The notes beneath the pieces are model-generated. The model saw only the letters and a list, made by a program, of their open reading frames with translations, was not told the DNA's origin and did no database searches. From Kandleria vitulina DSM 20405 (GTDB lineage: Bacteria; Bacillota_I; Bacilli_A; Erysipelotrichales; Coprobacillaceae), in assembly GCF_000702065.1 (NCBI RefSeq), contig NZ_JNKN01000015.1, forward strand, positions 1 to 49,297: a stretch of DNA of 49,297 nt, written 5' to 3'. Positions within the stretch are counted from its first letter, which is position 1. Each line of letters begins with the position of its first letter. Of this stretch, positions 8,656 through 25,562 are shown one piece after another. The translations under genes and the position numbers were made by a program.

Positions 8656-9459
8656 ATGATCGAAGCTGTTAAATATGTTCTAAAAGAGAACTTCTCAAAT
8701 GTCTTTCGTATCTATTCAATAGCGAAATACCAGGTTCTTGCAGATATGAGAGATTCTAAGCTAGGACTGTTTTGGAACTTTGCAAATCCGGTTATTCAGT
8801 GTTTAACTTACTGGTTTGTATTTGGACTTGTATTCGACCGTAAGGCCGTTGATGGCATTACCTACATCTGGTGGATGCTAGGTGGAATGGTCTGCTGGTT
8901 CTTTATTTCGCCTTGTATCACTGATGGATGTAATGCGATCTTTAAGAGAATCAATATCATCACAAAAATGAAATTCCCGGTAAGTGTCTTGCCGGCAACA
9001 GTTATTTTCTCTAAGCTGTTTGATCATTTCTGTCTGATGATCATATTAACAATTCTACTTGCATTAGGAGGCTATTATCCATCATTGCATTGGTTTGGAT
9101 TAGCTTACTATTGTTTTTGTGCGATTGTTTTTACAATCTCTTTATCTATGACCACTTCAGTATTGAATATGCTTGCTAGAGATGTACGTAAGCTTATTCT
9201 TGCGTTGATGAGATTGTTATTGTATATGACACCAATCTTATGGGATATTAAGAGATTGCCTGCGATTCTTCAAAGAATCATGTTGACAAATCCTGTTTAT
9301 TATATTGTAGAAGGATATCGTGATTGTTTCTTCTATCATAAAGGATTTATGTATTATAAATATTCAATGACAACGTTTTGGATTATTACCATTGTATTAT
9401 TTGTTTTTGGTAGTACAATGATGTATAAATTCAAGGCGAAATTCGTAGACTTTATTTAG
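8656..9459 (+). CDS. tagG: ABC transporter permease, teichoic acid/polysaccharide export type
   Basis: Membrane part of an ABC-2 type exporter, 267 residues with six predicted membrane segments. The N-terminal cytoplasmic part (YQVLADMRDSKLGLFWNFANPVIQ) and the ending (NPVYYIVEGYRDCFFYHKG) match the TagG/Wzm group that moves undecaprenyl-linked teichoic acid or polysaccharide outward. It is followed 10 bases later by its ATPase and then by teichoic acid glycerophosphotransferase genes, which supports teichoic acid as cargo. AAAGGAGG precedes the start. The symbol is by family and context. Confidence 0.88.
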   Translation: MIEAVKYVLKENFSNVFRIYSIAKYQVLADMRDSKLGLFWNFANPVIQCLTYWFVFGLVFDRKAVDGITYIWWMLGGMVCWFFISPCITDGCNAIFKRINIITKMKFPVSVLPATVIFSKLFDHFCLMIILTILLALGGYYPSLHWFGLAYYCFCAIVFTISLSMTTSVLNMLARDVRKLILALMRLLLYMTPILWDIKRLPAILQRIMLTNPVYYIVEGYRDCFFYHKGFMYYKYSMTTFWIITIVLFVFGSTMMYKFKAKFVDFI

Positions 9460-9469
9460 GAGGTATGTT

Positions 9470-10291
9470 ATGGATTCTAATATTGCAATAGAAGCAAGAC
9501 ATGCTTCTAAGATCTATGAATTAAGAGGAAAACAAAAAGGGGAACAGGGTCAGAAATTCTATGCGTTAAAGGATTTGAACTTTTCTGTTCAGAAAGGGGA
9601 AGTTGTTGGTGTTCTAGGAACAAACGGGTCTGGGAAATCAACGATTTCCATTATTCTTGCAGGAATCTGTGATCCTGATGAAGGGGAAATCAAGGTCAAT
9701 GGTTCTCAGGCGCTGATTGCGATTAACACTGGTTTAAATCAGCAGTTGACTGGTATGGAAAATATCGAACTTAAGGGTGCTTTGCTTGGTCTTACTAGAA
9801 GCAAGATAGAAAAGATCAAGGCAGGGGTTATTGAGTTTGCGGAAATCGGAGATTTCCTTTATCAGCCAGTTAAGACATATTCAAGTGGTATGAAATCCCG
9901 ATTAGGGTTCTCTATTAACTTATGTCTAGATCCTGAAATCATGATTGTCGATGAAGCATTGAGTGTCGGTGATAAAGGCTTTGCTCAGAAATGTATCAAT
10001 AAGATGAAAGAATTACGTGATGAAGGTAAGACAATCATCTTTATTTCACATAACTTAAAGCAAGTGCGAGACTTCTGTGATACTGCCATGTGGATTGAAG
10101 GCGGAATGCTAAGAGAATATGGTGATATCGATGAAGTGTGTGATCGCTATGCACAATATGTGGATTATTATAATAATCTATCTGGTAAAGATAAAAAGAA
10201 AGAGCGTGATCGCAAGTTTGCGAAACGTATCATCAAAAACTCTAAGCAGTCGTTTTTTGATAAGCTCTTTGCTGCCTTGAAGACAAGGTAA
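9470..10291 (+). CDS. tagH: ABC transporter ATPase, teichoic acid export type
   Basis: ATP-hydrolysing partner of the permease before it. In the 273-residue protein, Walker A is GTNGSGKST (residues 50-58), the ABC signature is SSGMKSR (138-144) and Walker B is IMIVDE (157-162), followed by the switch His in FISHNLKQ. The extended N-terminal loop before Walker A and the SSGM signature are typical of the TagH/Wzt group. It lacks the large C-terminal extracellular part of B. subtilis TagH and ends in a short basic tail (KKERDRKFAKRIIKNSKQ). TTTAGGAGGTATGTT gives a strong ribosome binding site. Confidence 0.9.
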   Translation: MDSNIAIEARHASKIYELRGKQKGEQGQKFYALKDLNFSVQKGEVVGVLGTNGSGKSTISIILAGICDPDEGEIKVNGSQALIAINTGLNQQLTGMENIELKGALLGLTRSKIEKIKAGVIEFAEIGDFLYQPVKTYSSGMKSRLGFSINLCLDPEIMIVDEALSVGDKGFAQKCINKMKELRDEGKTIIFISHNLKQVRDFCDTAMWIEGGMLREYGDIDEVCDRYAQYVDYYNNLSGKDKKKERDRKFAKRIIKNSKQSFFDKLFAALKTR

Positions 10292-10303
10292 CCTGGAGGA
10301 TTT

Positions 10304-11926
10304 ATGAGAAGTACACAAAATATTATTATCAAAGATTTATCAATCAATCGTATTGTTGTAAGAATTGATGGTGAATCTTTGATTCCTTTAAAGAAGCTTG
10401 TATTAAAAGATTCTATTACTAATACGGTATTGGATCTTCATTCAGTCAAATGGGAAGGGGCAGCTTTTCATCTCTCATTTAATCTGATGTCTTTAAATCA
10501 TGAGCATCCGATTGAATCTGGAGATTGGTATCTCATTGGTATTGATAAAAATAATAAGAACCATGAATGCTATCCTGTTGAAGAATTGATTAAGGGAATG
10601 AAAGAAAGAATGTTTAACATTTCCAATAAGTACAATGCTTATTTTGATAAGAGTCAAAAGAATTATTACTATGCTGAAAGCAAGATTGATGAAGATAATC
10701 AGTCTTACTTCTTAAAGATAGAATATGCTGTTCCTAGTCAACCTTTGACTTTTATGCAAAAAAGAAAGAAAGCTTATAAAAAGCATATGCATAATCTTTC
10801 TGTGTGGGGCTTTGTTAAAACTTTTAACTTTTTTAAGAAGTTCAATAAGCCAAATGGCAACAGATTGTTATTTACATCTTCTTCAAGAAGTGAGATTGGC
10901 GGCAATCAATTGTATGTCTACAATCGCATGAAGGAAAGAGGAGTAGATCAGCAGTTTAAGATTGATTTTTCTTATAAGGCTAATATCAAAGATCGAAGAG
11001 GATTATTGAATAAGTTCTCTTTTACAAGAAAGCTTGCTATGGCTAATATCATCATCTGTGATGATTATCAGCCTGAACTCTATCATGTAGAATATGCTGA
11101 TGGGGTAGAAATCATTCAATTATGGCATGCCTGTGGTGCATTCAAGACAGTTGGTCTTGAACGTATGGGAAAACCAGGAGCACCAGCATTTGATACTAAT
11201 GTTCATAAGTGCTATACCGCAATGACTGTATCTTCACCATTGGCTGCAGCACATTATGCTGAAGCATTTGGTATCGATGAATCAAAGATTGTATCTTTAG
11301 GAGTACCTCGTACTGATATCTTCTTTGATGAAGAATACAAGAAAGAGATTATTCCTAAGGTTAAAGCAGCATTCCCACAAATTGAGAATGCTGATGAGGT
11401 TATTATGTATGCACCAACATTTAGAGGAATCAATGCGCGTTATGCCTATTTCCCAATGGATATGATTGACTTTGATGGCTTTGGTGAATATTTAGAAAAA
11501 CATAATAGCGTCATGCTTATTAAGATGCATCCATTTGTAAGAGAACCACTTCCTATTCCAGAAAAATACAAAGATCGCATCATTGATGCATCTTCTTATA
11601 GAGAAATCAATAACATGCTCTTTGTAACTGATTTATTGATTACTGACTATTCATCAGTTATCTATGAGTTCTCACTCTTTAATAAGCCAATGCTCTTCTA
11701 TGCATTTGATCGTATGAAATACGAAGCAGATCGTGGGTTCTATGAACCATATGCTAAAATGGTGCCTGGCAAGATTGTCAGAACGTCAGAAGATCTTATC
11801 GCTTCATTAGAAGCACGTGATTTTGAATATGAAAAGGTGGCACCTTTTGTAAAGAAGAACTTCAGTTATACAGATGGAAAATCAACTGATCGTATTATCG
11901 ATCAATTGATTTTAAAGAATAAGTAA
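10304..11926 (+). CDS. CDP-glycerol glycerophosphotransferase family protein with N-terminal extension
   Basis: Teichoic acid polymerase-type enzyme of 540 residues that transfers glycerol-phosphate or ribitol-phosphate from a CDP donor. The C-terminal 360 residues carry the family motifs: QLWHACGAFKTVGL, GVPRTDIFF, YAPTFRG, KMHPFV and ITDYSSVIYEF, with the conserved His and Asp positions of the TagB/TagF fold. The first 170 residues are a separate domain I cannot name, with beta-rich character. No membrane segment is seen; the family binds the inner face by amphipathic helices. Which polymer step it does is undecided. Confidence 0.88.
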   Translation: MRSTQNIIIKDLSINRIVVRIDGESLIPLKKLVLKDSITNTVLDLHSVKWEGAAFHLSFNLMSLNHEHPIESGDWYLIGIDKNNKNHECYPVEELIKGMKERMFNISNKYNAYFDKSQKNYYYAESKIDEDNQSYFLKIEYAVPSQPLTFMQKRKKAYKKHMHNLSVWGFVKTFNFFKKFNKPNGNRLLFTSSSRSEIGGNQLYVYNRMKERGVDQQFKIDFSYKANIKDRRGLLNKFSFTRKLAMANIIICDDYQPELYHVEYADGVEIIQLWHACGAFKTVGLERMGKPGAPAFDTNVHKCYTAMTVSSPLAAAHYAEAFGIDESKIVSLGVPRTDIFFDEEYKKEIIPKVKAAFPQIENADEVIMYAPTFRGINARYAYFPMDMIDFDGFGEYLEKHNSVMLIKMHPFVREPLPIPEKYKDRIIDASSYREINNMLFVTDLLITDYSSVIYEFSLFNKPMLFYAFDRMKYEADRGFYEPYAKMVPGKIVRTSEDLIASLEARDFEYEKVAPFVKKNFSYTDGKSTDRIIDQLILKNK

Positions 11927-11930
11927 AAAG

Positions 11931-11957
11931 AGTGGATATATTATATCCACTTTCTTT
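11931..11957 (+). terminator. Terminator-like hairpin inside the teichoic acid operon
   Basis: AGTGGATATA / TATATCCACT perfect stem, followed by a broken T run (TTTCTTTG). It probably reduces rather than stops transcription into the next gene. Confidence 0.6.
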
Positions 11958-11975
11958 GTCAAGGAGGCAAAATAT

Positions 11976-12965
11976 ATGAAGAAAGTATTTCCTCATCCTA
12001 CCTTCAAGAATATTAAGATTAAATCTTTAGGGGTAGGAGAAACTATTAATATCAAGCCCTTGATCAGGGGACCTGAAGGTGAGATGGAAGCAGACATTCA
12101 TTATAAAAGTGATATGAGTGATATTCTTTCAGTTGATCAGGAAGGAAATGTAACAGGATTAAAAGAAGGATATGGTGAAATTCTCGCATTTGCCTGTGGC
12201 AAATTAGCAAGATTGCCTCTCCATGTCGCCAATGTACCTTCTGGTATAAAGCAGGTGACAGGACATCGTGGCTTAAGAGGATTAGCAGTTGAAAATACGA
12301 TGCCTTCCTTTAAGCTTGCTGCAAAGCATCATGTAGACTTTATTGAAACTGATATCGCAATCACAAAAGATCATCAGCTGGTTCTTTTCCATGATGTCAA
12401 ATCAATGAAAAGACTGACTGAAGAAGAAAGACCAGTCAATGATTTAACTTTAGAAGAAGTCAAGAAGGTAAAGTTTACAGCTGGTAATCATCTAGAAGAT
12501 TATCCTGATGTCAGTGTTCCAACTCTAGATGAATATCTTGATTTTATGGAAACAACATCTTCTTATCCAATGATTGAGCTTAAGGATCCTCAACTTAAAG
12601 ATCATGAAGAACTACTGATTCAGATTAGAGATAAAGTAGATGCACATGGCTTTAGTGATCATGTAAGAATTACTTCTGCTAATATGGATAACCTGTTTGC
12701 TTATGAGAAGATCAATAAGAATCATGAACTATGGATCATTGTGGAAGATCCACTTGATGATATTGAACTATTAAAAGCACATCAGTGGAATTATTCAGTT
12801 AAAAAGAATGCCTGCAAAAAAGATTTTGTTAAGCAGGTACATGATGCTGGATTAAAGACTGATGTATGGATTATCAATGATAAAAAGGAAGCAAAAGACT
12901 TTCTTGATTGGCCAATTACATCTATGACAAGCGATGTTGTGATTATGGATGAAGCAGTCAAATAG
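11976..12965 (+). CDS. Glycerophosphodiester phosphodiesterase with N-terminal Ig-like domain
   Basis: Hydrolyses glycerophosphodiesters to glycerol-3-phosphate and an alcohol (family activity). The 329-residue protein has two parts. Residues 10-85 look like a Big2-type bacterial Ig-like domain (ILSVDQEGNVTGLKEGYGEI). Residues 92-329 form a GDPD TIM barrel with GHRG at 96-99, ENTMPSF at 106-112, the metal-binding ETD at 124-126 and VLFHD near 140. There is no signal peptide, so it appears cytoplasmic, which is odd for an Ig-like domain. It sits between a glycerophosphotransferase and tarI, suggesting glycerol-phosphate supply, polymer editing or turnover. AAGGAGG precedes the start. Confidence 0.88.
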   Translation: MKKVFPHPTFKNIKIKSLGVGETINIKPLIRGPEGEMEADIHYKSDMSDILSVDQEGNVTGLKEGYGEILAFACGKLARLPLHVANVPSGIKQVTGHRGLRGLAVENTMPSFKLAAKHHVDFIETDIAITKDHQLVLFHDVKSMKRLTEEERPVNDLTLEEVKKVKFTAGNHLEDYPDVSVPTLDEYLDFMETTSSYPMIELKDPQLKDHEELLIQIRDKVDAHGFSDHVRITSANMDNLFAYEKINKNHELWIIVEDPLDDIELLKAHQWNYSVKKNACKKDFVKQVHDAGLKTDVWIINDKKEAKDFLDWPITSMTSDVVIMDEAVK

Positions 12966-13022
12966 GTAGATATTTAATGTTAAGTGTGATATTATACGCT
13001 TATCAAACGGAGGTTATATAAA

Positions 13023-13733
13023 ATGATCTATGCGGAAATTTTGGCAGGCGGTAAAGGTACAAGAATGGGTAATACTGCTATGCCTAAACAATTCTTGATG
13101 TTAGGAGGAAAACCAATCTTTGTTCATACTGTAGAACAGTTCTTAATGAACACAAGAATTGATGAAATTATTATCTGTACTCCTGAAGTCTGGATTGCAC
13201 ATACTAGAGATACTTTAAAGAAATATATTAAAGATTTATCAAGAATTCAGATTGTAGCAGGTGGTGCTACAAGAAATGATACTATCATGAATGGTATTAA
13301 GTTTATTGAAGAAACATATGGCTTAAATGATGATGATGTCATCTTGACACATGATGCAGTAAGACCATTCTTAACTCAGAGAATCATTGATGACAATATT
13401 GAAGGTGCTATTAAACATGGTGCAACTGATACTGTTGTAGAAGCATTTGATACAATTGTACATTCAGTAGATGGAAAGATTATTACTGATATTCCAGTAA
13501 GAAGTGAAATGTTCCAGGGGCAGACACCTCAGTCTTTTAATATTAAGCTTTTAAAAGAATTCTTTGAAAACTTGACTGATGATGAAAAAGAAATTCTTAC
13601 TGATGCATGTAAAGCACTTGTCATTAAGGGACATGATGTACATCTTGTAAGAGGCGAAAGCTATAATATGAAGATTACAACTCAGTACGATCTTAAGGTT
13701 GCTAATGGTCTGGTAGAAGGGCAGAAAATCTAA
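13023..13733 (+). CDS. tarI: Ribitol-5-phosphate cytidylyltransferase (IspD/TarI family)
   Basis: Makes CDP-ribitol from CTP and ribitol-5-phosphate for teichoic acid. The 236-residue protein has the nucleotide-binding start ILAGGKGTRMG (residues 6-16), PKQF, and the HDAVRPFL and VHLVRGESYNMKITTQYDL motifs of the IspD fold. IspD and TarI cannot be separated by these motifs alone; the call as TarI rests on tarJ starting at the very next base and on the surrounding glycerophosphotransferase genes. CGGAGG is the ribosome binding site. Confidence 0.88.
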   Translation: MIYAEILAGGKGTRMGNTAMPKQFLMLGGKPIFVHTVEQFLMNTRIDEIIICTPEVWIAHTRDTLKKYIKDLSRIQIVAGGATRNDTIMNGIKFIEETYGLNDDDVILTHDAVRPFLTQRIIDDNIEGAIKHGATDTVVEAFDTIVHSVDGKIITDIPVRSEMFQGQTPQSFNIKLLKEFFENLTDDEKEILTDACKALVIKGHDVHLVRGESYNMKITTQYDLKVANGLVEGQKI

Positions 13734-14750
13734 ATGATCAATACTGTCTATAGATTAATTGCACCTAAATCAATTCGTGCTGATTTCGTTGATCTTAAGC
13801 TAGATGAAGAAAGAATTATTATCAGACCAACATATCTTTCTATCTGTGCTGCTGATCAGAGATATTATACGGGATCAAGAGGAAGAGTTGTCATGAAGCA
13901 GAAGCTTCCAATGGCACTTATTCATGAAGCAGTTGGTGAAGTTGTCTATGATCCAAAAGGTGAACTTCCTGTAGGAACTCATGTTGTCATGATTCCTAAC
14001 ACACCAAATGAAAAAGATGATATTATCAAAGAAAACTATTTAAGATCGTCTCAGTTTAGAGCATCAGGTTTTGATGGCTTTATGCAAAATGTTGTTTCTA
14101 TGAGAAGAGATCTCGTTATTCCATTTGATTATGAACCAGAAGTAGGTGTGCTTCTTGAATTAATGAGCGTTGGTATGAATGCGGTTAGTACATTCAAGAA
14201 ACATGCTCATGATCGTAAGGATGCTATTGGAATCTGGGGAAATGGAAATGTCGGTTTCGTAACAGCATTGATCTTAAGAAAAGAATTTCCAGATGCAAAG
14301 ATCTATGTGTTCGGTGTTGAAGAACACAAGAACAGATATTTCTCATTTGCGGATGATACATTCATCATCAATGATATTCCAGAAGATCTTCAGTTAGATC
14401 ACGCTTTTGAATGTGTAGGTGGAAGAGGTTCGGAAGCTGCTATTTCTCAGATTATTGATTATATTAAACCACAGGGAACAATCAACCTTATGGGTGTATC
14501 TGAGAATCCTGTGCCAATCAATACAAGAATGGTATTGGAAAAAGGTTTACAGCTTTTAGGAAACTCTCGTTCTAACTATGATGATTTCAAGAAATCAGTA
14601 GATATGATGGCTAATAATAAAGATGTCAGAGAATATCTTTCTACAATTGTTTCAGAGATGGTTGTTGTTAACACTATTGATGATATGATTAGAGCATTTG
14701 AAGATGATACATACAATGACTTCAAAACAGTCATGAAATGGGAAATCTAA
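13734..14750 (+). CDS. tarJ: Ribulose-5-phosphate reductase (zinc alcohol dehydrogenase family)
   Basis: Reduces ribulose-5-phosphate to ribitol-5-phosphate with NADPH, supplying TarI. The 338-residue medium-chain dehydrogenase has a catalytic-domain Cys in LSICAADQRYYTG, the HEAVGEV motif, and a nucleotide-binding fold beginning GIWGNGNVGFV. Start and stop are fused directly to tarI with no gap, so the two are translated together. A terminator follows, ending this transcription unit. Confidence 0.9.
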   Translation: MINTVYRLIAPKSIRADFVDLKLDEERIIIRPTYLSICAADQRYYTGSRGRVVMKQKLPMALIHEAVGEVVYDPKGELPVGTHVVMIPNTPNEKDDIIKENYLRSSQFRASGFDGFMQNVVSMRRDLVIPFDYEPEVGVLLELMSVGMNAVSTFKKHAHDRKDAIGIWGNGNVGFVTALILRKEFPDAKIYVFGVEEHKNRYFSFADDTFIINDIPEDLQLDHAFECVGGRGSEAAISQIIDYIKPQGTINLMGVSENPVPINTRMVLEKGLQLLGNSRSNYDDFKKSVDMMANNKDVREYLSTIVSEMVVVNTIDDMIRAFEDDTYNDFKTVMKWEI

Positions 14751-14752
14751 TA

Positions 14753-14780
14753 ACCAGTCCTATAACGGACTGGTTTTATT
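14753..14780 (+). terminator. Terminator after tarJ
   Basis: AACCAGTCC / GGACTGGTT stem with a six-base TATAAC loop, followed by TTATT. A TATAAA near 14801 may start the next transcript. Confidence 0.8.
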
Positions 14781-14835
14781 GCGTTTTTCATATGTTTGTT
14801 ATAAAATGAGATATATTTAAGAAAAGGAATAGATT

Positions 14836-15948
14836 ATGGCCAGCTTTATAAAAATGATCTTACAGATCGCTAGACAATTGGATCTTATTGTCTATTACAT
14901 CTTCTATAGATGGAAATATAATATTATTAATAATCAAGTGCTTTTTCTTTCTCAGACAAGAAATGAATTAACAGGTAACTTCGAGTTTATCTATAATGAA
15001 ATAAAAGCTGATTATCTCGTAAAGACAGCCTTGGGAGATCATATAGGAGAACGTAAAGAACTCGCAAAGACATTTGCGATGTCTCATTATATTCTAGTTG
15101 ATGACTTTACACCAATTATTTATCCTATTCCCCTTAGAAAGGGAACACACCTTATTCAGGTATGGCATGCCTTGGGGGCATTCAAGACAATTGGTTTTGC
15201 AAGATCACGCAATCATGATCGTTTTTCAATGACACATAGAAACTATGATGATACGATCGTTTCAAGTGCATCCATTGTTAAAGATTATGCGAAAGCATTT
15301 CGGATGAATGAAAAAGATGTACATCCTATCGGTATTCCTAGAACTGATATTTTCTTTAATGAAAGAAAAAAAGCAAGCATTCGCTTTTCTCTTTATCGAG
15401 AATACCCTTGGCTAAAGGGGAAGAAGGTCATTCTGTTTGCTCCTACATTTAGAGGTGGCAATATTCATAATGCCTACTATGATTATTCGAAGATCAACTT
15501 TAAAAAACTGCAGATGGCATTAGGTGATGAATATGCCTGTATTGTTAAGATGCATCCATTTATTTCACAGGGTGTACCTGAAGATCTTGATCCATCTTTC
15601 TATATTGACTTATCAAGTCAAAGAGATATTAATGATCTATTGATGATTACAGATATTCTTATTACTGATTATTCATCAGTCATCTTTGAAGCCGCATTGC
15701 TGCCAATTAAGACAATATTCTTTATTTATGATCTAGAGAACTATATTGCAGATAGAGATTTCTTCTATCCGTTTGAAAAGTATACCTATGGTCCTGTCGC
15801 ATTTACACAAGAAGAAATGATAGATGCGATCTTATATGGAGCAGTGAATGAAGAAAAGAAAAAAGAATTTGTAGACTATTTTATTAACGCGTGTGATGGA
15901 TATTCATCTAAACGCTTTGTAGAAACATTAATGAGGATTGATATATGA
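14836..15948 (+). CDS. CDP-glycerol/CDP-ribitol glycerophosphotransferase family protein
   Basis: Second polymerase-type enzyme, 370 residues. Motifs in order: IQVWHALGAFKTIGFARS, GIPRTDIFF, FAPTFRGG, KMHPFI and ITDYSSVIFEAALL. The N-terminus is hydrophobic/amphipathic (FIKMILQIARQLDLIVYYIF), in line with membrane association. It is most like the single-domain TarB/TarF/TarL group, so it could prime or extend a glycerol- or ribitol-phosphate chain. It overlaps the next gene by four bases (ATGA), showing translational coupling. Confidence 0.88.
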   Translation: MASFIKMILQIARQLDLIVYYIFYRWKYNIINNQVLFLSQTRNELTGNFEFIYNEIKADYLVKTALGDHIGERKELAKTFAMSHYILVDDFTPIIYPIPLRKGTHLIQVWHALGAFKTIGFARSRNHDRFSMTHRNYDDTIVSSASIVKDYAKAFRMNEKDVHPIGIPRTDIFFNERKKASIRFSLYREYPWLKGKKVILFAPTFRGGNIHNAYYDYSKINFKKLQMALGDEYACIVKMHPFISQGVPEDLDPSFYIDLSSQRDINDLLMITDILITDYSSVIFEAALLPIKTIFFIYDLENYIADRDFFYPFEKYTYGPVAFTQEEMIDAILYGAVNEEKKKEFVDYFINACDGYSSKRFVETLMRIDI

Positions 15949-17072
15949 GCATAATCATAAAATTAGCAATCGCAATATTAAATGGTATCTTCTTTTTTAT
16001 GAAGCTGCTTCCAGTACAAAAGAAAATCACTTATATATCAAGACAAAGCAATAAGACACCGATTGACTTTGAACTTGTAAAAGAAGATATAAAAAAACAA
16101 GCGCCAGAGTATAAGCATGTGATTCTTGCTAAACGAATCCCCAATCATATGATGGGGAAAATAAAATATGCGTTTCATGTTTTTGTACAGATGTATCATA
16201 TTGCCACAAGTGAAGCAGTACTGCTTGATACATACTGTATTCCTATCAGTATTCTTAAACAAAGACAGTCCCTGGTGGTTATTCAGATGTGGCATGCATT
16301 AGGCGCTTTTAAGAAGTTTGCGTATTCCATTCTTGATCAAAAGGAAGGCTCTTCTAGTCGCATAGCACAGCTGATGAAGATGCATTATCATTATAGCTAC
16401 GTATTAACTTCAAGTCACACGGCATTGCCTTTTTTTGCGGAAGCTTTCAATGTAGAAAAAGAAAAGATGGTTGTCTTGCCACTTCCTCGTACTGATCTTC
16501 TTATAAAAGAAGGAGAAGGTGTTATCGAGAGAATTGAAGAGGCTTATCCTCAATTACAAGATCATGACAAGAAAGTTATTGTATATGCACCGACATTTAG
16601 AAAAAGTGATGATCATTTAAGAGACGCTATTTTATCATTGATCAATGAAATTGATCATTCTAAATATCATCTTGTTTTAAAGCTTCATCCCCTTATTGAA
16701 CGTACATTTGATGATCAGCGTATCATAGTAGATCATAAGTTCAGCACACAGGAATTCTTCCATAGAGCTGATATTATTGTCACAGATTATTCAGCAGCAT
16801 TATTTGAAGCCTGTATGATGAATAAGCCTATCTATTTTTATGATTTTGATTATGATACATATATGCGAAATCGTTCTTTCTATCTTGACTACAAGACAGA
16901 TATGCCTGGTCCTTTATGTGAAACAAGTGAGTCATTGATGAATGCGATTGAGATGAATACATGTGATCTAAAGAGGGTAGAGGCTTTTCGAAAAGAAATG
17001 GTAGCACCTTGCAAGGAAAGCTATACGAGAGATTTTACTTCTTTCTTATTAAAGCAGTTAAGCAGAGACTAG
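15945..17072 (+). CDS. CDP-glycerol/CDP-ribitol glycerophosphotransferase family protein, divergent
   Basis: Third polymerase-type enzyme, 375 residues. Motifs: IQMWHALGAFKKFAYS, PLPRTDLL, YAPTFRK, KLHPLI and VTDYSAALFEACMMNKPIYF. The usual second Ser of TDYSS is Ala here, and the first glycine of FRG is replaced by Lys, so its activity or acceptor may differ from the other two. A hydrophobic N-terminus (IIKLAIAILNGIFFFMKLL) may hold it at the membrane. It is the last gene of the teichoic acid block; the stop codon is inside the terminator stem. Confidence 0.85.
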   Translation: MSIIIKLAIAILNGIFFFMKLLPVQKKITYISRQSNKTPIDFELVKEDIKKQAPEYKHVILAKRIPNHMMGKIKYAFHVFVQMYHIATSEAVLLDTYCIPISILKQRQSLVVIQMWHALGAFKKFAYSILDQKEGSSSRIAQLMKMHYHYSYVLTSSHTALPFFAEAFNVEKEKMVVLPLPRTDLLIKEGEGVIERIEEAYPQLQDHDKKVIVYAPTFRKSDDHLRDAILSLINEIDHSKYHLVLKLHPLIERTFDDQRIIVDHKFSTQEFFHRADIIVTDYSAALFEACMMNKPIYFYDFDYDTYMRNRSFYLDYKTDMPGPLCETSESLMNAIEMNTCDLKRVEAFRKEMVAPCKESYTRDFTSFLLKQLSRD

Positions 17073-18645: not shown

Positions 18646-19599
18646 ATGAAACAAGTAAAGAAGTTTATGCTTGTTTTTGGTCTTTCTTTATGTATGATTA
18701 TGCCAGTGATGGCAGATGTTCACGCAGAAGGTACTACTTCATCTAATGATACTCAGAATACAACTGAGACTACAGGGGATAATGGAAGTACTACTCAGGG
18801 TGAAAATGGTAATCAGACAGGGAATACGGAAGAACCAAAAACAACTCCCGAAACGCCAAAGGAAGAATCGAAGCCTGCTGCTAAGCCTGTTGTAAAGAAT
18901 GGTTTTATTAATGAAAGTGGAAAGATCTATTTCTATAAGAACAATAAGCGTCTTAACTATAAAGGATGGAAAAAGATCAATAAGAAGATCTACTATTTCA
19001 ATAAAAAACATGCTGTTGTAACAGGACAGAAGAAAATCAAGAAATCTTATTTCCTTTTTAATAGTAAAGGGAAATTAATGACTGGATGGCAGAATGTAGG
19101 TAATAAGAGATATCTATTTAAGACAACTGGTAAATTAGGTGTTATTGGTAAACGTCTTAAAGAAGATAAAAGCAAAAATGTTCAGGGATATAAGAGTGAT
19201 ACTAAATGGTTGATTCTTGTAGACCGTTCTGCTCATAAGGTTTATGTATACCATGGCAAAAAAGGAAGCTGGAAATTAAAGAAGAGTTTCTTATGTGGTA
19301 ATGGTAAAGCATCGACACCTACTGTAACTGGTACTTTCAAGATGGGTACTACAAAAGGACGTTACTTCAAGGCTAGATATTTTGATTCAGCACCTGCTAG
19401 ATGCTGGTGGCCAACACGTATTACAGGCGGATATTTATTCCATTCTGTATTATATTATCCATCATCAACACCTGCTCGTGTTATGGATGGCAGAGTTGGT
19501 GTAGGTGTATCACATGGTTGTGTACGTTTGAAATTAAACAATGCAAAATGGATTCATGACCATATCACTAAGAAGACAACTTGTGTTATTTACAATTAA
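18646..19599 (+). CDS. Secreted L,D-transpeptidase (YkuD) with cell-wall-binding repeats
   Basis: Secreted wall enzyme that cross-links or remodels peptidoglycan stem peptides. In the 317-residue protein, a signal peptide ending near MADVHA occupies residues 1-27, then a Thr/Asn/Gly/Pro/Glu-rich linker to about 82. Three to four choline-binding-like repeats (KIYFYKNNKRLNYKGWKKIN, KIYYFNKKHAVVTG, YFLFNSKGKLMTGW) run to about 165. A YkuD domain follows to the end, with the catalytic SHGCVRL at 289-295 (Cys292). An OmpR-type two-component system follows directly and may sense or control wall state. Confidence 0.93.
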   Translation: MKQVKKFMLVFGLSLCMIMPVMADVHAEGTTSSNDTQNTTETTGDNGSTTQGENGNQTGNTEEPKTTPETPKEESKPAAKPVVKNGFINESGKIYFYKNNKRLNYKGWKKINKKIYYFNKKHAVVTGQKKIKKSYFLFNSKGKLMTGWQNVGNKRYLFKTTGKLGVIGKRLKEDKSKNVQGYKSDTKWLILVDRSAHKVYVYHGKKGSWKLKKSFLCGNGKASTPTVTGTFKMGTTKGRYFKARYFDSAPARCWWPTRITGGYLFHSVLYYPSSTPARVMDGRVGVGVSHGCVRLKLNNAKWIHDHITKKTTCVIYN

Positions 19600-19605
19600 T
19601 AGATT

Positions 19606-19637
19606 GTGCATCTCTTGAGATGCACTTTTCTTTTTTT
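19606..19637 (+). terminator. Terminator after the L,D-transpeptidase gene
   Basis: GTGCATCT / AGATGCAC stem with a CTTG loop, followed by TTTTC and seven T residues. Confidence 0.85.
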
Positions 19638-19675
19638 GTAAAATTGTTATACTTATATTAACAGGGAGGTTTCTT

Positions 19676-20353
19676 ATGCGACTGTTATTAGTAGAAGATG
19701 AAAAATCACTTTCAAGAGCGTTATGCAGTATTCTTGAAGACAATGGATACAGTGTTGATCCAGTCTATGATGGAGAAGATGCCATTGCTTTTGCAAATAG
19801 TGAAATATATGATGGGATTATCTTGGATGTCATGATTCCTAAGAAGGATGGATTTGAAGTATTAGAAAGCATTAGAAAATCAGGAAACATGATACCAGTT
19901 CTTATTTTAAGTGCACGTTCAAGGGTGGATGATCGTGTAAAAGGATTAGATCTTGGTGCCAATGATTATCTTACAAAACCATTTTCACCAAAGGAACTGC
20001 TTGCCCGTATTCGTGCTATGTCACGAGTCAAGCTTGCAGAACCTGATACAACACTAAGAGTGGGAAATATAATTCTTGATAAGTCCACTCATGAGTTGTC
20101 TTCAACAGCAGGTAATTTCCATTTGGCCAATAAAGAATTCCAGATGATGGAACAGTTTATGTCACATCCTAAACGTGTCTATTCCATTGATTTCTTTATT
20201 GAAAAAATATGGGGATATGAAAGTGATGCAGAACAGAATCTTGTATGGACTTATGTTTCTTATTTAAGAAAGAAACTAAAAGTGCTACATGCGGATGTGA
20301 AGATTAAGGCCTATCGTAATACAGGCTATTCTTTGGAGCCTTGCGATGATTAA
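19676..20353 (+). CDS. OmpR-family response regulator
   Basis: DNA-binding output half of a two-component system. The 225-residue protein has a receiver domain at 1-115, with acidic pocket EDE at 7-9, phosphorylation site Asp51 in LDVMIPKKDG, Ser79 in LSA and Lys101 in TKPF. A winged-helix DNA-binding domain covers 125-222 (NLVWTYVSYLRKKL, YRNTGYSL). GGGAGG precedes the start. It overlaps the kinase gene by eight bases. Likely targets are neighbouring wall genes, but this is inference from position. Confidence 0.94.
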   Translation: MRLLLVEDEKSLSRALCSILEDNGYSVDPVYDGEDAIAFANSEIYDGIILDVMIPKKDGFEVLESIRKSGNMIPVLILSARSRVDDRVKGLDLGANDYLTKPFSPKELLARIRAMSRVKLAEPDTTLRVGNIILDKSTHELSSTAGNFHLANKEFQMMEQFMSHPKRVYSIDFFIEKIWGYESDAEQNLVWTYVSYLRKKLKVLHADVKIKAYRNTGYSLEPCDD

Positions 20354-21545
20354 CAGATTAAGAAGAAAGTTTATTTTGAGTGCCATCAGTGCACTCCTTC
20401 TTATTGTTATCTTGTTTGTTGGTATTCTGGATGGATTAAACTATCTTCAAATGGATAGAAAACAAGTGAGAACATTGAACATTCTTGAAAAGTATTACAA
20501 GGATGAAATGTCTGCTGTAGATAATAGTGAAATTCCTTATGCATCACGATATTTTGTTGTTGTCTATGATAATGAAGGTCAACTTGTAGAAATCAATACC
20601 GCAAGAGTAAGAACAATTGTTAACAATAAAGCCGAACAATATGGATTAAAGGCTTATCATAGTAAAAAGAAGAGAGATTTTATTGGTCATTATCGTTATA
20701 CAAAATCAAAGAGAGGGGATTCTACTTATATTATTTTCTTGGATGTAGAGAATTCACTTGAAGATTTCTTTGACATTGTCAATTTATCAATAATCTTTGT
20801 AGTATTAGGGGTCGTTCTCTTTATTTTCCTTATTGTGATCTTATCAGGAAAAGTGATTAAGCCTTTTGTAGACAACTATGAAAATCAGCGTAACTTTATT
20901 GCGGATGCTGGTCATGATTTAAAGACACCTATTACCGTTATTGAAGCTGATGCGGAAGTCTTAAAGATGAAATTTGGAGATGATAATGAATTCTTGAATG
21001 ATATCTTCCTTCAGTCTTCAAGATTAAAGCAATTGACAGAAGATCTTATCTACTTATCTAAGCTAGATGAAAATCCTGATTATGAAATGATTGAGTTCCC
21101 GTTATCAGATGTTATTACTGAAATATGTCAATCATTTGAGAGTGTAGCTAAAACACAGAAGAAAGAAATGACAATTACCATTGAACCACATCTCAGTTTT
21201 AAAGGTAATCAGAAGAACATGGAAAGATTGGTTAATATTCTATTGGATAATGCGGTCAAGTATTCTTCTGATCATGGAAAAATCGATGTCTCTTTAGAAA
21301 GACAAAAGAAGTTTATCGTGTTGACTGTTTATAATACAGTCGATCATATCAGCAAAGAAGAATTGCCTAAGCTCTTTGATCGTTTCTATCGTTCTGATCA
21401 ATCAAGAAACTCTGAAACAGGAGGGTATGGTATTGGGCTTTCTGTTGCTAAAAGTGTAGTTGAAGCACATAAAGGAAAAATCAATGCGACTACATCAGAT
21501 GAGAAATCACTGGTTATGATTGTTATCTTGCCAAATAGAATTTAA
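20346..21545 (+). CDS. Membrane sensor histidine kinase
   Basis: Partner of the response regulator before it. The 399-residue protein has membrane segments at about 10-29 and 147-167 around an extracellular sensor of about 115 residues. The H-box is NFIADAGHDLKTPI with His190; Asp/Pro-type dimerisation helices follow, then the ATPase domain with N-box NILLDNAVKYS, DRFYRSDQSR and the G-box GGYGIGLSVAKSV. There is no HAMP domain visible between the second membrane segment and the H-box beyond a very short linker. The signal sensed is unknown; the nearby wall hydrolases and transpeptidase suggest wall stress or antimicrobial peptides. Confidence 0.93.
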   Translation: MINRLRRKFILSAISALLLIVILFVGILDGLNYLQMDRKQVRTLNILEKYYKDEMSAVDNSEIPYASRYFVVVYDNEGQLVEINTARVRTIVNNKAEQYGLKAYHSKKKRDFIGHYRYTKSKRGDSTYIIFLDVENSLEDFFDIVNLSIIFVVLGVVLFIFLIVILSGKVIKPFVDNYENQRNFIADAGHDLKTPITVIEADAEVLKMKFGDDNEFLNDIFLQSSRLKQLTEDLIYLSKLDENPDYEMIEFPLSDVITEICQSFESVAKTQKKEMTITIEPHLSFKGNQKNMERLVNILLDNAVKYSSDHGKIDVSLERQKKFIVLTVYNTVDHISKEELPKLFDRFYRSDQSRNSETGGYGIGLSVAKSVVEAHKGKINATTSDEKSLVMIVILPNRI

Positions 21546-21569
21546 AAAGCAGCCTAGGCTGCTTTTTTA
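21544..21569. terminator. Bidirectional terminator between convergent genes
   Basis: AAAAAGCAGCC / GGCTGCTTTTTT with a TA turn. It has a T run on both strands and separates the kinase from the minus-strand membrane protein gene. Confidence 0.88.
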
Positions 21570-22486
21570 TTTGTAATAGTAATATTAGAATGTGAAATCA
21601 TCAAGAATAAAACTATGAACAATAGATATTTTCTAATTGTTGAGTAGAATGTAACTTTCTTTGAAGAGTCAGCTCTTAGCTTACTGAGTTGACTGCTAGA
21701 AAAGATTTCTGACTTGTTATTGACGTAGGCAAAATGTTCATTGGAAGGGAAATCCTTTGGGCATTTTATTGTTTTAGGTGCATAGAAGTAACGATGATTG
21801 TTCTGTAGAAATGTAACTGAATAGTAATGATCTAAATTTGACTTATAGGACAAATCTATAATATTTAACTTTTCATCTAATCCAACATATAAATTCTTGT
21901 TAATATCAAGCTTATATTTTGCGATAAGCTCATCAGGTATTTGTCTAGGCTCTACTCCTATCTTGAAGTATTCCTTGAACATATAGCCATTGAATACATG
22001 ATAAATATGATATTTATCAAGAGCTTTTAAATGAGATGTAGAAATCATGACTAATGATTGTGATCCAATTAAGAGCAGTATGGTCATAATGAGAACTATT
22101 CCATAAGCAGATAATCTCTTCTTGTGAGGTTTAGCTTGTGGTTTTTTTATTTGTCTGATATCTTCCTTGATTCGATAATAGAGTTTTTCTCTTTCATGAT
22201 TATCTGTTTCTTTTGAGGGAGTGTATATTTCATCAAAAGAATAATCATTGAAAGATGAATCGTTATTAAAAGAATATTCAGCAGCATTTGCACTGTAGAA
22301 AGATGAAACGACACTTCCAGTATAATCTACATAATGCATGTAATGATAATCAGGAAATAGTCTTTGCATTTCTTGTTGAATAGAAGAATAATCTGTTAAT
22401 AGACAATTGATGATAATGGTATCATCATCAAGATATAAATCAAATATCTTATGGTTTGTTTTAGCGTATATGATAATTTTATTCAT
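21554..22486 (-). CDS. Hypothetical membrane protein
   Basis: Not recognised. 310 residues from the ATG at 22486, which follows AAAGGAGAT on the minus strand; an in-frame ATG at 22561 has no such site. The first 145 residues look cytoplasmic, with Tyr/Asp/Ser-rich low-complexity sequence around 65-90 and a basic stretch KKPQAKPHKKR just before a membrane segment at about 147-170. About 115 residues follow outside, then a second hydrophobic segment (KYLLFIVLFLMIS) near the C-terminus. It lies between a two-component system and two secreted lysozymes, so a wall or envelope role is possible. Confidence 0.65.
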   Translation of the reverse strand: MNKIIIYAKTNHKIFDLYLDDDTIIINCLLTDYSSIQQEMQRLFPDYHYMHYVDYTGSVVSSFYSANAAEYSFNNDSSFNDYSFDEIYTPSKETDNHEREKLYYRIKEDIRQIKKPQAKPHKKRLSAYGIVLIMTILLLIGSQSLVMISTSHLKALDKYHIYHVFNGYMFKEYFKIGVEPRQIPDELIAKYKLDINKNLYVGLDEKLNIIDLSYKSNLDHYYSVTFLQNNHRYFYAPKTIKCPKDFPSNEHFAYVNNKSEIFSSSQLSKLRADSSKKVTFYSTIRKYLLFIVLFLMISHSNITITNKKAA

Positions 22487-22568
22487 GATAATCTCCTTTT
22501 GTGATTCATTATAACATAGATTTAAAAAGGAAAGCTTGTCTAAATATAAAATTCTATTCATGATAATA

Positions 22569-22586: not shown

Positions 22587-22623
22587 AACTAAGAGTAAGA
22601 TACTAGTAAAAGGGGATGATGTG

Positions 22624-23967
22624 ATGAAATTATTAGGGAAATTATGCATATCATTATTAAGTGTACTTATGGTCGTAGGATTTATTCCTGTAAATGATGT
22701 CAATGCAGCAGTGAAATTAAGTGCAACTTCTAAGACAATTTATGTAGGCAGCGGGTATACATTAAAACTAAAAGGGACAAGCAAGAAAGGACATGCTAAA
22801 AGTTCTTCTAGTGCTGTCAAAGTGTCCGCAGTTAAAAAGACGAAAAAGGTCAAAGTGAGAAAACGTGTTACTGTTAAAGTGAAAGTACGCGGTAAATGGA
22901 AAAAGAAAAAAGTTTGGCGCAAGGTTACAGTGAAGAAAAAAGTAACTGTAAAGAACAGCTTCTACTTAGCAGGAAAAAGAGCAGGAAGTGCTGATGTAAG
23001 TGTAACATATGGAAAGAATAAGATTGTTTGTCATGTTGCAGTTTATCAGCCACAGTTAAATACTGTTGTGGGATATACTTATAATTTGGCATCTAGACTA
23101 TCTCATACATCTGATTCTAGATATTGGACAAGTAATCAGGCTGTTGCTTTAGTAGATGAGTATAGCGGTCTACTTATGCCAATTCATTCTGGATCTTGTA
23201 TTATTTATCGTAAAGTTAATAATAAGGTAAAGAGCCAGATTAAAATTAATGTAAAATCAAGTGGTGATGTAAAGGTTGGTGTAGATGTTTCAAGACATAA
23301 CGGGATTGTCAATTTCAATACATTAAAGAAGAATAATATTAATTTTGCGATTATCAGAGGTGGCAATGGCTGTCGTAAATACGGTACAACTGACAAAAGT
23401 TCTATTGATTTAAATTTAAAGAGAAATATTGAAGGCGCCAAAGCTGCGGGCATGGAAATTGGATTATATTGGTATTTAAACAGCAGTACCAATGGATTGA
23501 TGTCTAGCGGTGATGCAAAGCTACAAGGAGAACGATTTGCTGACAGACTATTGAGTCTTGATATTGAAAAGAATACACCAATCTATATTGATTTAGAAGA
23601 GCATTCAGCGTTATTAAAGTCTGGTTCAAAAAACACAAAAGCAGAATTCCAGAAAGAGATGTGTCAGATCTTTGAAGCAAAACTAAGAGAAAAAGGATTT
23701 ACGAATATTGGAATCTACGCCTCTACTAGCTGGTATAAGGATTATTTAAAAAATGATTATTTCATGAACAAAGTGGACGTAGGAGAAGAAGGAATCACAA
23801 GTCATTGGCTTGCACATTATAACTACGCTTCAAAAGAAGGAGCACAAACACCACAGTTCTACTATAATGGTAGACTAATTACACCAGATATCTGGCAGAC
23901 AGGAAGTCGTTTCCGTATCTCTGGTATAGGTTCTACTTATGTAGATATGAACTATCTTTATCAATAA
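22624..23967 (+). CDS. Secreted GH25 lysozyme with lysine-rich Ig-like N-terminus
   Basis: Predicted secreted muramidase that cuts the glycan chain of peptidoglycan. From the ATG at 22624 (a GTG lies three bases before), 447 residues: signal peptide 1-29; an Ig-like (Big2-type) domain at about 30-141 with a cationic insertion at 71-110 in which 22 of 40 residues are Lys or Arg and none is acidic; a second Ig-like domain to about 215; then a GH25 domain from VGVDVSRHNG (about 219) to the end, with IYIDLEEHSALL holding catalytic acids. It is paralogous in full architecture to the next gene. The cationic part may bind teichoic acid. Confidence 0.88.
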   Translation: MKLLGKLCISLLSVLMVVGFIPVNDVNAAVKLSATSKTIYVGSGYTLKLKGTSKKGHAKSSSSAVKVSAVKKTKKVKVRKRVTVKVKVRGKWKKKKVWRKVTVKKKVTVKNSFYLAGKRAGSADVSVTYGKNKIVCHVAVYQPQLNTVVGYTYNLASRLSHTSDSRYWTSNQAVALVDEYSGLLMPIHSGSCIIYRKVNNKVKSQIKINVKSSGDVKVGVDVSRHNGIVNFNTLKKNNINFAIIRGGNGCRKYGTTDKSSIDLNLKRNIEGAKAAGMEIGLYWYLNSSTNGLMSSGDAKLQGERFADRLLSLDIEKNTPIYIDLEEHSALLKSGSKNTKAEFQKEMCQIFEAKLREKGFTNIGIYASTSWYKDYLKNDYFMNKVDVGEEGITSHWLAHYNYASKEGAQTPQFYYNGRLITPDIWQTGSRFRISGIGSTYVDMNYLYQ

Positions 23968-23971
23968 AAAG

Positions 23972-24000
23972 AAGATACACGAAAGTGTATCTTTTCTTTT
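23972..24000 (+). terminator. Terminator after the first GH25 gene
   Basis: AAGATACAC / GTGTATCTT stem with a GAAA loop, followed by TTCTTTT. Confidence 0.82.
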
Positions 24001-24030
24001 ATCCTTAATATTAATTTGTATAAAAACAAA

Positions 24031-24048
24031 TTAACTTAAGTGAACCTC
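24031..24048 (-). promoter_or_regulatory. Possible regulator site upstream of the second GH25 gene
   Basis: Read on the minus strand, AGGTTCACTTAAGTTAAT matches AAGTTCATTTAAGTAACT upstream of the first GH25 gene at 14 of 18 positions, in opposite orientation. It is partly palindromic around CTTAAG. Confidence 0.33.
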
Positions 24049-24140
24049 AATAAAAGTGATAAAATTGTCGTATATATAGACTTTTTATTTTAAAAAAATC
24101 GACTTTATGATTTAATAAGTGTAATAGAGGAGGGATAGCC

Positions 24141-25562
24141 GTGAATAGTTTTAAACGATGTCTAAGTGTATGTTTGAGCCTTTTAATGGCACTTACTATC
24201 GTAGGTGTACAAAATGTACAAGCTGCCGGAATCTCATTAAGTGTTACTAAGAAGACAATGAAGGTGGGGCAATCTTTTACTTTTAAGATTAATCATTCTG
24301 CTTCTCATGTTGCAAGATCTACTAACACTAAAATAGTATCTGTTACACAAAAAACAAAAACAAAGTATGTAAAAAAGAAAAAGAAAGTGATTATCTATAA
24401 GAAGGTCAAAAAGAAATATGTAAAAAAGAATGTTTGGCGTACTTATACAGTCAAAAAAGTAAGTAAAGTAAAAAATACGTTTTCTATTAAAGCAAAGAAG
24501 AACGGAAATGCATCCGTACGTGTTGTCTATCGGAACAAGAATTATGATTGCAAGGTTGTCGTTGGAAGTACTTCAACGACAAGCAAGAAAGCTTCTCCAA
24601 GTAATTTAATAACTTCAAAGCCAAAGACTAGCTATACAGCGAAATGTTCCACTACTAATACCATGTATGTTGGACAGACAGTCAAACTAGGTAAAGAACT
24701 TGGTGGAAATGGGGCCTATGTATCAAGTAAGTCAAGCGTAGCGTTGGTTGATACATCTACAGGTCTAGTCATGCCAATTGGTGAAGGGAAAGCTAAAATT
24801 ACGAATACTAAGTCTAATAAGAGTAAGGACATTATTGTTAAAGATTCTAAAAATGTAGAGGTAGGTATTGATGTTTCATATCATAATGAGACAGTCAATT
24901 ATAAATCTGCAAAAAGCAATGGGATTGATTTCGTTGTGATTCGTGGAGGAAATGGCTACAAGAAACGTACGACTACGAATGCTAAAGGTGTTGATCTTAA
25001 CTTAAAGAAGAATATTGATGGCTGTGAAGCAGCTGGACTTAAATATGGTTTCTATTGGTATCTTCAATCAAATAGTGGAAGTGGAAAGATGACTGAAGAA
25101 CATGCTGAGATGCAGGCTACAGCGATGGCTGATGCACTTGATAGATACAAGTCTTCTATGAAGCTCTTTAAGCTTCCAATTTATTTGGATCTTGAACAAC
25201 ATTCTGCTTTACTTGTAAGTGAAGGCAATGACTCAAAGGAAATGAAAGAGAATGCTGCTTTCCAGAAGAAAATCTGTCAGGCTTTTATTAATGTATTATT
25301 AAAACGAGGCTACAATAACATTGGTATTTATGCATCACGTTCTTGGTATAATGACTATCTTCAGGATGAATATTTCGTTAATCAGTTTGCTTCTAGATGG
25401 TTAGCTAATTATCAATTTGATTCTGCCAATAATTCTACGATGATTCCTACATTTAAATATAATAATAAAACATATTATCCAGATATTTGGCAGACAGGGG
25501 AAAACTTTAAGGTATCATTTAATGGCAGCAAAGCTATAGACATGAATTATCGCTATTTATAA
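24141..25562 (+). CDS. Secreted GH25 lysozyme, paralogue of the preceding gene
   Basis: 473 residues starting at a GTG that follows GAGGAGGGATAGCC. Signal peptide 1-29 (ending VQAAG); an Ig-like domain at about 30-142 with a cationic insertion at 71-112 (20 of 42 residues Lys/Arg, none acidic); a Ser/Thr/Lys linker; a second Ig-like domain at about 165-235; and a GH25 domain from VGIDVSYHNE (about 240) with IYLDLEQHSALL. It aligns with the previous gene along its whole length but with clear divergence, so the duplication is old. It has its own leader and terminators on both sides, so the two are separate transcripts. Confidence 0.88.
   Translation: MNSFKRCLSVCLSLLMALTIVGVQNVQAAGISLSVTKKTMKVGQSFTFKINHSASHVARSTNTKIVSVTQKTKTKYVKKKKKVIIYKKVKKKYVKKNVWRTYTVKKVSKVKNTFSIKAKKNGNASVRVVYRNKNYDCKVVVGSTSTTSKKASPSNLITSKPKTSYTAKCSTTNTMYVGQTVKLGKELGGNGAYVSSKSSVALVDTSTGLVMPIGEGKAKITNTKSNKSKDIIVKDSKNVEVGIDVSYHNETVNYKSAKSNGIDFVVIRGGNGYKKRTTTNAKGVDLNLKKNIDGCEAAGLKYGFYWYLQSNSGSGKMTEEHAEMQATAMADALDRYKSSMKLFKLPIYLDLEQHSALLVSEGNDSKEMKENAAFQKKICQAFINVLLKRGYNNIGIYASRSWYNDYLQDEYFVNQFASRWLANYQFDSANNSTMIPTFKYNNKTYYPDIWQTGENFKVSFNGSKAIDMNYRYL

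Follow-up and report, generated by a model that had tools for sequence, protein, structure and literature searches.

A lysine- and arginine-rich, predicted hairpin insert in a diverged Big_2 domain of two paralogous GH25 proteins from Kandleria vitulina

Results

The window, meaning the whole 49,297-nucleotide stretch of Kandleria vitulina DSM 20405 DNA that was analyzed (contig NZ_JNKN01000015.1), encodes two neighboring secreted lysozyme-like proteins, GH25-a and GH25-b (Table 1). We used the GTG at 22621 as the start of GH25-a; the first-pass annotation had taken the ATG at 22624. It had also given both proteins a common plan of signal peptide, first Ig-like domain, second Ig-like domain and GH25 catalytic domain, and the open reading frames and Pfam matches agreed with this plan. 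The GH25 family (PF01183) matched GH25-a with an E value of 2.4e-17 and GH25-b with 1.5e-16, at 64.3 and 61.7 bits against a cut-off of 27, with profile positions 1–179/180 covered. The catalytic Asp and the D-x-E motif (D222, D324 and E326) were invariant in nine aligned relatives. On the strength of these matches, GH25-a and GH25-b are members of the GH25 family, and muramidase activity is predicted for both. Over 481 aligned positions they share 41% identity, and the genome encodes no other GH25 protein.

Table 1. Coordinates of GH25-a, GH25-b and neighboring genes in the window
Feature	Residues	Coordinates	Strand	Remarks
Teichoic-acid locus: ABC pair, three Glyphos_transf, GDPD, IspD/TarI-like, TarJ-like dehydrogenase		8656..17072	+	
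YkuD L,D-transpeptidase (choline-binding-like repeats), response regulator, histidine kinase		18646..21545	+	same order in sister genus
GH25-a, secreted lysozyme-like protein		22621..23967	+	448 aa from GTG; ATG at 22624
GH25-a signal peptide	1-29	22621..22707	+	by inspection
GH25-a Big_2-like domain, first half	31-70	22711..22830	+	
GH25-a cationic insert, predicted beta hairpin	71-112	22831..22956	+	
GH25-a Big_2-like domain, second half	113-143	22957..23049	+	
GH25-a second Ig-like domain	about 147-216	23059..23268	+	common to all orthologues
GH25-a GH25 catalytic domain		23278..23964	+	
GH25-b, paralogue of GH25-a		24141..25562	+	473 aa
GH25-b Big_2-like domain, first half	31-70	24231..24350	+	
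GH25-b cationic insert	71-112	24351..24476	+	
GH25-b Big_2-like domain, second half	113-142	24477..24566	+	
GH25-b second Ig-like domain	about 176-238	24666..24854	+	
GH25-b GH25 catalytic domain		24864..25559	+	

The teichoic acid locus, which the first-pass annotation had put 5-15 kb away, lies 5.5-14 kb upstream. Its three Glyphos_transf genes encode CDP-glycerol glycerophosphotransferases, and the TarI-like product is a cytidylyltransferase. CDP-glycerol glycerophosphotransferases, TarI/TarJ-like proteins and an ABC pair are what a locus for a polyol-phosphate teichoic acid usually encodes. The genome also has three LCP ligase-type genes. DltD was not found in a genome search, which hints that D-alanine does not mask the polymer. 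In one sister genus (G019), teichoic acid genes, the YkuD transpeptidase, the response regulator, the histidine kinase and the GH25 genes occur in the same order, and in another sister genus (G020) trp genes follow the GH25 genes, as in the window.

The YkuD gene of the window (18646-19599) also encodes a Lys-rich stretch, and its product is 41% identical to the G019 counterpart. In G019, YkuD and a Rce1-like gene are about 8 kb apart (L151 4237-12299), and the counterparts in the window about 0.8 kb. A 335-residue open reading frame (21554-22561, minus strand) sits between the histidine kinase and GH25-a and points away from the latter; no Pfam or NCBIfam family matched it over the cut-off. 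In G020, a TnpB-like gene (IS605 OrfB-type, by inspection) lies between the GH25 paralogues (L050 6379-7626).

The first Ig-like domain of each protein is interrupted by an insert. It occupies the turn of a Big_2 domain, between a strand ending in VATVS and a strand starting with GKVTA, and alignment to plain Big_2 domains set its limits at residues 71-112 in both proteins (71-110 and 71-112 in the first-pass annotation). We compared the 70 residues left after removal of the insert with a profile built from 22 local Big_2 domains, and hhalign matched them at 98.3% probability (E 1.3e-14). It gapped that turn unprompted when the insert was retained (E 1.5e-10), and the best of 40 column-shuffled controls reached 2.7% probability. 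Pfam Big_2 (PF02368) gave no match when the insert was retained. Once it was spliced out, the domains of GH25-a, GH25-b and a third protein described below scored 13.7, 20.9 and 20.2 bits, all below the cut-off of 22.8; GH25-b and the third protein came close to it, and GH25-a did not. From the hhalign match and the near-cut-off Pfam scores, the first Ig domain is best classified as a diverged Big_2 domain carrying one lengthened turn. The flanking strand pattern is that of Big_2; where Big_2 has a turn of about 4 residues, GH25-a and GH25-b have a cationic, predicted hairpin of 42. The first-pass annotation knew of no named domain of this kind. Searches of Pfam, NCBIfam and PDB sequences indeed returned no named family for the insert-bearing domain, but the Ig domain itself is Big_2-like, and its lengthened turn makes up the insert.

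The composition of the insert was as first described, about 40 residues of which about half are Lys or Arg, with no acidic residue. In the stretches first delimited, Lys and Arg account for 21 of 40 residues in GH25-a and 20 of 42 in GH25-b. Acidic residues are absent from the inserts of all three proteins. The two paralogues are 50% identical in the insert and 45% identical in the rest. Identical residues are encoded by different codons in 70% of cases in the insert versus 50% elsewhere. The similarity of the paralogues' inserts exceeded that of all 2000 shuffles that kept the charged/hydrophobic pattern (z 5.1), and the insert of the third protein resembled them more weakly (z 1.8 to 3.5). 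The earlier claim that the insert is kept despite divergence therefore stands between the paralogues, and the prevalence of different codons at identical residues indicates that the protein sequence has been held. No tandem DNA repeat was found in the insert region, only two 15-base runs.

A long beta hairpin with strictly alternating charged and hydrophobic residues had also been proposed. The alternation was no stronger than in shuffled sequences (P 0.19 and 0.83), and the period-two power of the insert fell inside the shuffled range. The hairpin fared better. A single-sequence AlphaFold2 model placed strands at residues 72-89 and 92-109, centered in the insert, with pLDDT of about 85, in a model that was poor elsewhere (mean pLDDT 43.8 for the whole protein, mostly <50 in the Ig part). 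Sequences rich in Val and Lys favor strands in single-sequence models, so the prediction supports a beta hairpin rather than proving one.

The GH25-a first Ig domain, used as a query, revealed a third full-length copy in the same genome, in a 465-residue secreted protein (C6) on another contig. C6 is 35% identical to GH25-a and was matched with an E value of 3.7e-38 by a profile that itself contained the C6 copy. Its C-terminus looks transglutaminase-like by inspection, with no Pfam match. A gene adjoining C6 (L052 1850-3460, contig 6 of this genome, G000) encodes a secreted protein with a short, 17-residue form of the cationic Ig hairpin and, by inspection, the GENLA motif that typifies CAP domains. 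These copies were found by sequence similarity, by which hairpins of dissimilar sequence elsewhere in the genome could be missed.

The computed charge of the mature proteins at pH 7 was +41 and +45, with only +4 on the catalytic domains. The region N-terminal to the catalytic domain carried +38 in GH25-a and +41 in GH25-b, and +34 to +58 in sister-genus orthologues with a stack of Big_2 domains; catalytic domains in the orthologue comparison ranged from -10 to +7. As the totals are similar and one domain takes the place of a stack, the hairpin packs onto a single domain the charge that in relatives is distributed among several domains. Per 100 residues, the N-regions of the Erysipelotrichaceae GH25s examined were all cationic (about +8 to +20), and GH25-a and GH25-b were the highest at +19 to +20. 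N-regions of GH25s fetched from Lachnospiraceae and other Clostridia had about -16 to +2. The similarity in charge might partly reflect a Lys-rich lineage of 35% GC.

Outside this genome, the GH25 muramidases with repeated N-terminal domains share the catalytic domain, the second Ig-like domain and the gene neighborhood with GH25-a and GH25-b. Among them, the Erysipelotrichaceae orthologues of sister genera have a stack of 2-5 ordinary cationic Big_2 domains and lack the hairpin, whereas GH25-a and GH25-b have one elaborated Ig domain. Sister-genus Ig domains have a shorter turn extension, for example KKIKKNQW. Turn lengths of about 4, 8, 17 and 42 residues suggest that one turn may have grown stepwise.

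When named genome contigs were scanned, no relative turned up at first; a second scan gave 79 GH25 loci, none of which had such a hairpin. The profile search of relatives proposed in the first-pass annotation was run on partly overlapping draws of the order, class and phylum (295, 395 and 392 genomes, with 11-15 candidates scored per genome where there were many). The full-length module appeared in this genome only, and orthologues from other genera had not kept the insert. No relative of C6 was found among 42 other genomes of the family. With no other full-length copy in the three draws, the module seems, as far as these searches reach, to be confined to this lineage. A prophage origin was considered and rejected: the domain profile picked up no relative in a scan of viral contigs, and phage matches covered mainly the GH25 part at <30% identity.

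Discussion

The elaboration of a known domain described here is real and unusual, and is probably a wall-binding finger. In the reading that we favor with some reserve, GH25-a and GH25-b would be secreted muramidases that remodel the wall. One Big_2 turn would have lengthened to an acid-free, Lys/Arg-rich beta hairpin of ~42 residues. This hairpin would act as an electrostatic finger that retains the enzyme on anionic teichoic acid beside its peptidoglycan substrate, standing in for the cationic Big_2 stack that would do the same job in sister genera. Teichoic acid is the most likely ligand, judging from the charge comparisons and from other cationic wall enzymes. We infer that the hairpin forms in solution and that it may affect activity. 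The nearness of the teichoic acid genes says little in favor of the hairpin, since a sister genus with this gene order has GH25s that are hairpin-free.

Two systems work in the way proposed here. For cationic M23 wall hydrolases, of which SpM23_B is an example, more positive charge means higher activity and stronger binding, and both depend partly on teichoic acid (PMC9241647); SpM23_B belongs to an unrelated family, and its charge is distributed across enzyme and wall-binding domain instead of sitting on one hairpin. The teichoic-acid-binding (TAB) domain of Lactobacillus SlpA anchors the S-layer to teichoic acid through a strongly positive surface, with a different fold made of two SlpA motifs and a YxY...KxxN phosphate site (PMC11181022). 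In the literature searched, we found no description of such a cationic hairpin, nor of how secreted autolysins of Erysipelotrichaceae are retained at the wall.

A broader version of the proposal is more tentative, and we would give it rather less than an even chance. Here, the hairpin Ig domain would be a distinct movable module for wall anchoring, with a single polybasic finger, that binds poly(ribitol/glycerol phosphate), occurs in unrelated secreted proteins of one lineage and has replaced tandem Ig repeats. The same distribution can be read differently. Charge by itself confers no specificity, and the module sits on a transglutaminase-like protein and, in its short form, on a CAP-like one, neither of them obviously a peptidoglycan enzyme. 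The hairpin could then bind another polyanion, such as a capsule or exopolysaccharide, extracellular DNA, or host sulfated glycans or mucin, and contribute less to wall targeting than to adhesion or the anchoring of biofilms. We consider this unlikely, since the module forms part of GH25 muramidases whose genes lie at a wall and teichoic acid locus that is kept between genera.

Neutral expansion of a low-complexity, Lys-rich stretch would fit an AT-rich genome (35% GC) in a family where Lys-rich Big_2 domains are common. Such drift, or DNA slippage, was rejected as very improbable: the position-specific sequence is kept between the paralogues with changed codons, there is no tandem DNA repeat, and three proteins are free of acidic residues in the insert. 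A membrane-active element resembling an antimicrobial peptide, which would aid lysozyme attack on competing bacteria, is the least probable explanation. The sequence is cationic, acid-free and predicted to form a beta hairpin, as such an element would be, but it lacks cysteines that could lock a short hairpin, lies within an Ig domain and is also found on a protein that does not look lytic.

Retention on teichoic acid by the hairpin, our preferred reading, comes with a natural comparison, in which one enzyme, encoded at one and the same locus, would be targeted in two ways: by stacked cationic Ig domains or by a single Ig domain with a cationic finger. Short recombinant domains would thus allow a direct test of a targeting model based on charge.

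Cationic Big_2 domains also occur elsewhere in the genome. Four tandem paralogues (L039 1472-4317, G000 contig 2) combine a signal peptide, a cationic Big_2 domain and two short helical repeats, and these repeats look Ltp-like by inspection.
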